DNA of 64,000 nt from Puniceicoccaceae bacterium (GTDB lineage Bacteria > Verrucomicrobiota > Verrucomicrobiia > Opitutales > Coraliomargaritaceae). Where the stretch lies: the NCBI GenBank assembly GCA_018402305.1, contig JAGYJE010000001.1, forward strand, positions 124,001-188,000, given 5' to 3'. Of this stretch, positions 42,154 to 43,076 are shown one piece after another (positions within the stretch are counted from its first letter, which is position 1; each line of letters opens with the position of its first letter). Both the position numbers and the translations under genes were made by a program. The notes beneath the pieces are model-generated. The model saw nothing but the letters and a program-made list of their open reading frames with translations, did not search any database and had not been told where the DNA came from.

Positions 42154-42448
42154 CTCTTGGGGGTATAAGAAGTCTGAATTTCCGGGAAATGGATTGCGCT
42201 CGGTTGGGTGGGCGGACGAGTGGTGATTCCAATGCCGAGAATTTGGGATCCTATGGTGCAGCCGCTTTCTCTCTCTGCCATTATGGCAATAATCCTAGAA
42301 GAATGAGTTGGAGCCCTGAGACCTGAATTAGTATATGTGCATCAATACGTTACAAACCCCAAGACTATCGCCCTTTTGGCAAAACAAAAAATGGCCATAA
42401 CTAGATGACTATCCATACTGGCCTCTGACTTCCTGACTTCCGAGTGAC

Positions 42449-42759
42449 CCGAAAATCAGGTTCTTCGCTATTTTTAATGGATAGCTGATATCTGCTCTGA
42501 TTTTTACCACCCGCTTACGCTGGAGGCACCGAGGCACAGAGGCGGGTTGGTTAAGATGCAGGGAAATTTCAGGGATGCGGTTTTGAGGAGGCAGATGGGC
42601 TCAAACGTCTCGTGTTGTCATTTCAAGTGAATCACCCCCTCCGTGCCTCCGTGGTGAAAACGAACCAGTATCGAATCCCATGCCCTTCCTCTTCCCGGAG
42701 ATCCATGCGTGTTCCAATTTTCATTCATCCATCAAAAATAGCGAAGAACCGAAAATCAG
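42449..42759. mobile_element. MITE-like element with 24-bp terminal inverted repeats
   Basis: The left arm 42459-42482 begins GGTTCTTCGCTATTTTT and matches the reverse complement of the right arm 42727-42750 at 23 of 24 positions. The 11-bp direct repeat CCGAAAATCAG stands just outside each arm (42449-42459 and 42749-42759, overlapping the arm ends by 1-2 bp), like a target-site duplication. The body has no transposase-sized ORF. These are the features of a non-autonomous transposable element about 290 bp long. It could instead be a long hairpin of another origin. Confidence 0.6.
42522..42656. repeat. Nested inverted repeat inside the MITE-like element
   Basis: GGAGGCACCGAGGCACAGAGG (42522-42542) faces CCTCCGTGCCTCCGTGGTG (42638-42656). 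The cores ACCGAGGCACAGAGG and ACGGAGGCACGGAGG agree at 13 of 15 positions. I recall GGAGGCACGGAG strings as frequent intergenic repeats in Planctomycetes and Verrucomicrobia. Confidence 0.6.
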
Positions 42760-42834
42760 ACTGTAAATATTTGATTATCAACAAACGAAACCGGTCATAG
42801 GGTGTCCCGCTGAAAATCGTAATTCTGATCGTCC

Positions 42835-42920
42835 TCGTAATCCTAATCGATTCATCGAACTTGTAGGTTTCCATGCAGTCAGTACCCTAGCTTTCGGAGT
42901 AACCTCGATTACGATTACGA
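42835..42920. repeat. Inverted repeat of GATTACGA-type units
   Basis: TCGTAATCCTAATCGA (42835-42850) and TCGATTACGATTACGA (42905-42920) are reverse complements except at one position. The right arm is a tandem of the hexamer GATTAC. GGTGTCCC stands on both outer sides (about 42801 and 42933) as a direct repeat. Confidence 0.6.
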
Positions 42921-43076
42921 TTATGAGCTAAAGGTGTCCCAATTCGGAAGTCAGGCGGGCTTGATGCTTTCCCAACCCGCGCAGCTTGCCCTCCGTGGTT
43001 CTCACGGAGCTTGGGCAGAAGTACCGATTAGCGACGTTTCGGCTGCGGGATCATCGAGGTAGCTTTCAATCGTCCC

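Follow-up and report, generated by a model that had tools for sequence, protein, structure and literature searches.

In Microcystis aeruginosa, a 187-nt non-autonomous transposon (MITE) of the ISL3 type has GGCTCTTCG ends and is bordered by 8-nt direct repeats (PMC11448079). An element of this kind, 292 bp long and intergenic, occupies positions 42459-42750 of the window (the whole 64-kb stretch of DNA that was analysed), where it lies between two genes and could be read base by base. It is like the Microcystis MITE (PMC11448079) in its ISL3-type ends (GGTTCTTCG here, GGCTCTTCG there), its 8-nt direct repeats, its lack of a transposase, and the existence of ISL3 transposases with matching ends; it is unlike it in its length, in belonging to another phylum and in having a remnant of a GxxExxY gene inside. 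The two also differ in that the matching ISL3 transposase is found in the same genome in Microcystis (PMC11448079) but not in the own genome of the window element. Another related class is that of the mobile insertion cassettes (MIC, the term being used as in PMC3129680), in which IS ends surround a passenger gene without a transposase, as they do in a 736-bp copy from a relative (G029); the window copy, unlike a MIC (PMC3129680), has lost the passenger gene and retains only its 3' remnant between the IS ends. In the literature searched, there was no MIC combining ISL3 ends with GxxExxY.

With the ISL3-family insertion sequences (ISs; NF033550 / PF01610), the window element shares terminal repeats and an 8-bp duplication, and it differs from them in having no transposase. 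It combines what characterises an ISL3-family MITE: ends in common with an autonomous ISL3 IS, an 8-bp duplication, the absence of a transposase, and several copies plus an empty site. The one feature missing is a cognate transposase in its own genome, which bears on present mobility and is not part of the definition of a MITE. The identification as a real MITE of the already known ISL3 type is well supported, and we hold with high confidence that the element as a whole is best explained as a non-autonomous ISL3-family transposon, most likely derived, by deletion, from an ISL3-mobilised GxxExxY cassette.

The boundaries of the element are based on a repeat search, which identified two arms of 24 nt each, 96% complementary (23/24) and 244 nt apart. 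The left terminal inverted repeat (42459-42482, plus strand) is GGTTCTTCGCTATTTTTAATGGAT, with ends as on the ISL3 IS of G104 described below, and the right one (42727-42750, minus strand) is GGTTCTTCGCTATTTTTGATGGAT as read on that strand; the consensus of the ends is GGTTCTTCGCTATTTTTA[A/G]TGGAT. The 17-nt end occurs twice in the 64-kb window against an expectation of 0.22, and the 22-nt end pattern has matches in 11 of 11 chosen genomes, the reversed control having none. The same search gave a 14-nt direct repeat (93%) containing CCGAAAATCAG, which lies at 42449-42459 and 42749-42759. The arms, the direct repeats and the nested inverted repeat described by an earlier note are all present at the coordinates given there. 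The 11-bp direct repeat CCGAAAATCAG that it gave does exist, but only 8 bp of it, GAAAATCA (42451-42458 and 42751-42758, an 8/8 match, and single in the empty paralogues), constitute the true target duplication; the other three bases, the leading CC and the trailing G, are the terminal bases of the element itself and are found in the empty host repeat too. An ORF scan of 42459-42750 revealed no transposase, in agreement with the earlier note: the sole ORF of at least 60 aa (62 aa) extends out of the element.

The sequence hit by the MITE is a host repeat (42432-42955) with the ends CCTGACTTCCGA and TCGGAAGTCAGG, of which uninterrupted paralogues exist elsewhere in the genome. When the joined flanks of the MITE were searched in this genome, paralogues were found on contigs C10, C56 (two), C6 and C7, each with a single copy of the target; the alignment through the junction is ungapped in C10, in the two copies of C56 and in C6, and has a one-base gap in C7. 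The C10 paralogue, for example, reads GTGACCCGAAAATCAGACTG without interruption. Empty sites with a single CCGAAAATCAG, for which a search had been proposed, therefore exist in the same genome in paralogous host repeats; an orthologous empty site was searched for in relatives with the joined flanks and not found. The evidence for the empty site is that of the paralogues. The host repeat, too, is a dispersed element, small and with inverted repeats (paralogues at C10:41566, C56:33821, C56:139006, C6:41206 and C7:42257 of the window's genome, G000), and its copies at C56:139006 and C6:41206 are only about 92 bp long. The host-repeat copy in the window also contains a GATTACG-type palindromic stretch (42809-42932), which is bounded by GGTGTCCC repeats at 42801-42808 and 42933-42940.

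Further copies of the MITE, which the earlier note had suggested looking for, are present in the window's genome and in several relatives, some of them with exact and differing 8-bp duplications. The window's genome has a copy with 91% identity on C45, a fragment with 93% identity on C2, and solo ends; these other copies are truncated. In the relatives, elements of 229 to 736 bp have the same or closely similar ends, and the exact 8-bp duplications at such copies include TTTAAATC, AATCCTTT, ACAGAACA, GCTAAAAT, CTCCGGTT and AATTAGAA; the sites with exact duplications, all of them different, include G009:C129, G029:C28, G029:C50, G029:C87 and one in G022. In 13 chosen flank pairs, 99 of 104 positions match within pairs and all wrong pairings remain below 7/8; these matches are not due to chance, and how frequent they are cannot be read from this set, which was picked for good matches and leaves out pairs without duplication (e.g., G009:C94, G009:C11, G104:C165, and the ISs of G032 and G040). 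All these comparisons were made on draft assemblies, that of the window's genome being 90% complete. A contig bearing the proteobacterial label SAR92 clade (L175, 55-76) carries one end of the element followed by IS66-like genes, which may reflect wrong binning or transfer.

A transposase with matching ends, another of the proposed checks, was found by scanning 373 genomes of the order. One of these, G104, contains on its contig C165 an ISL3-family IS of 1339 bp in which both 22-nt ends are identical to each other and the transposase (419 aa) scores 298 bits to NF033550 transpos_ISL3 (cut-off 180). The ends of the window element are identical to those of this IS over the first 17 nt at both sides; over 22 nt, the left end differs by one base (A for G) and the right end by two. 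Two further G104 copies are interrupted by contig breaks, across which their flanks match as the exact 8-bp duplications TTTATTTA and GAGACTTT; at the flanks of G104:C165 itself and of the ISs of G032 and G040, no duplication was seen. The latter are related ISL3 ISs with the closely similar ends GGTTCTTCGAGATTT and GGTTCTTCGACATTT, and the transposases of G032 and G104 have 54% identity to each other. In the 90% complete genome of the window, the cognate transposase is absent, the best ISL3 protein being 27% identical to that of G104, and the window copy may be immobile now because of this lack. The large ISL3 gene of this genome (C5) was considered as a partner and rejected, given this 27% identity and the absence of matching ends around it. 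A search of plasmid records with the G104 IS gave no match.

The interior of the element contains an inverted repeat, GGAGGCACCGAGGCACAGAGG near 42522-42542 and CCTCCGTGCCTCCGTGG at 42638-42654. Its left arm (TACCACCCGCTTACGCTGGAGGCACCGAGGCACAGAGG, 42506-42542, plus strand) flanks GxxExxY genes in relatives, and its right arm (CCTCCGTGCCTCCGTGGTGAAAACG, 42638-42662, plus strand) was likewise delimited by sequence and comparison with relatives. Local and DNA alignments show that 42565-42635, on the plus strand, is what remains of a GxxExxY gene at its 3' end, together with the spacer downstream of it (..DGLKRLVL..). When this interior is aligned locally with the corresponding part of a G009 copy, the score is 51, whereas 1000 dinucleotide shuffles gave at most 34, and a multiple alignment agrees with this result; no match above shuffles was obtained with the GxxExxY copies of G029 or G022. 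In G009 and G039, the elements contain truncated GxxExxY genes (PD-(D/E)XK-like) between inner repeats with the GGAGGCAC palindrome. The 736-bp element G029:C105, with the same ends and a different inner sequence, contains an intact GxxExxY gene of 126 aa (TIGR04256, 142 bits); its duplication matches at only 6/8 positions, it has no GGAGGCAC palindrome, and its GxxExxY protein has no sequence relative among solved structures. The proposal that the MITE was built on a palindromic repeat is therefore right in outline but incomplete, since the palindrome surrounds a GxxExxY gene in relatives, and the 3' end of such a gene is left in the window copy. The word "common", by which this repeat had been described, does not fit the window's genome, where it is found only inside this MITE family, the right arm occurring only at two copies of the MITE, and the many solo palindromes of a REP-type sequence with a RAYT-like mobiliser are not seen there.

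The window, C45 and C2 copies have a common shortened interior at different places, and G029:C50 and G029:C87, which differ in site and in their exact duplications, share an almost identical internal deletion. These observations indicate that the shortened forms moved as units. When the surroundings of GxxExxY genes were searched automatically for paired ends and duplications, only a minority proved to have ISL3-like ends; since most of these genes in the genomes studied have neither ISL3 ends nor the palindrome, the status of passenger can only be claimed for a subset of these genes. Elsewhere in the window's genome, a broken GxxExxY gene (C56:144649-144991, L244) is flanked by another inverted repeat (TCGCGCAGAGGCGCAGTGGCGCAGAGG). 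The MITE copy on C45 (about 3150, L041) is preceded by the same leading sequence as this broken gene, as if it had been inserted at the start of another such GxxExxY gene.

Could the ends have come from another family? The duplications of IS256 elements, of 8-9 bp, would also fit the footprint, and at C34:73737 of the window's genome, an IS256 transposase (NF033543, 321 bits) adjoins a left end that matches. However, no second matching end follows it, and the paired identical ends found elsewhere enclose ISL3 genes. Moreover, inside the C34 fragment, an inverted GTCTGTAAATTC/GAATTTACAGAC pair brackets the IS256 transposase region, and behind it there is a GxxExxY gene accompanied by the inner repeat, an arrangement that the insertion of an IS256 into a copy of the element would produce. 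IS256 was accordingly rejected as the source of the ends, and a MITE of this family is very improbable. The region concerned (L040, 2038-4143, from C34:73737 onward) appears as a fragment of the element family that is broken by an IS256-family transposase element and has a truncated GxxExxY gene after it. An origin in the IS1380 family deserves even less credence. It is suggested by the IS1380-like fragments between the ends of a 2050-bp element of G256, which has an exact 8-bp duplication, but it is refuted by a 306-bp copy without IS1380 in the same genome. The IS1380 of G256 lies inside the MITE together with an inverted repeat (CCTAAAAACGGCGAT) and a short ATTAG duplication that belong to it, and therefore looks like a later insertion. 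This insertion, with its 5-bp ATTAG duplication, lies in a 306-bp MITE with similar ends (L206, 145-2194; G256:C20). Equally little can be said for a regulatory hairpin or for inverted and direct repeats that arose by chance: the element is intergenic and its strand folds well (z -3.1), but the empty sites, the matching IS and the copies found elsewhere, whose exact duplications differ, refute this as the primary explanation, and promoter, terminator and Rfam scans gave no such signal. A secondary regulatory effect is possible.

A non-autonomous ISL3-family transposon, most likely the deletion derivative of an ISL3-mobilised cassette, is therefore the explanation that we retain. Movement in trans by an ISL3 transposase is the most likely mechanism, in view of the shared ends, the footprint and the established knowledge of ISL3. 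A full-length IS with the same ends would supply the ISL3 DDE transposase, which would recognise the terminal repeats of 22-24 bp and insert the element with duplication of an 8-bp, mostly AT-rich target, which in this case was an intergenic copy of a dispersed sequence with inverted repeats. The ancestor would have been a cassette-like ISL3 derivative with, in place of the transposase, a GxxExxY gene with the GGAGGCAC palindrome on its flanks and a predicted nuclease fold of the PD-(D/E)XK type; we infer that this gene-bearing form is ancestral and that its internal deletion would have produced the window element. As a variant of the same explanation, which concerns the inside of the element and overlaps with it in confidence, the palindrome-flanked GxxExxY unit may not be ancestral cargo but an independent mobile unit that entered an empty ISL3 MITE. 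G022, G004, G104 and G009 contain GxxExxY genes or gene remnants that have similar repeats at their flanks but no ISL3 ends, and the G029 copies have other inner and other subterminal sequences. On the other hand, no ISL3 MITE backbone without the inner unit was found, the unit has no clear flanking duplication, and the right arm of the inner repeat is confined to this MITE family in the window's genome. We regard this variant as a tentative possibility that deserves to be kept in mind.

An anonymous intergenic repeat becomes here part of a defined transposon family with ends, a footprint, empty sites and a candidate transposase. GxxExxY genes hardly appear in the open literature searched, which contains two passing mentions only, and their history as passengers appears to be undescribed there. 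The present findings offer one route for such genes, as passengers of insertion-sequence ends, followed by decay to miniature elements. It is conceivable, if rather unlikely, that the palindrome-flanked unit is moved or maintained with the help of its GxxExxY protein, a predicted nuclease of the PD-(D/E)XK type. If this were so, the ISL3 ends and the inner unit would be the two layers of a mobile system in which one carries the other and by which GxxExxY genes are spread among these bacteria.
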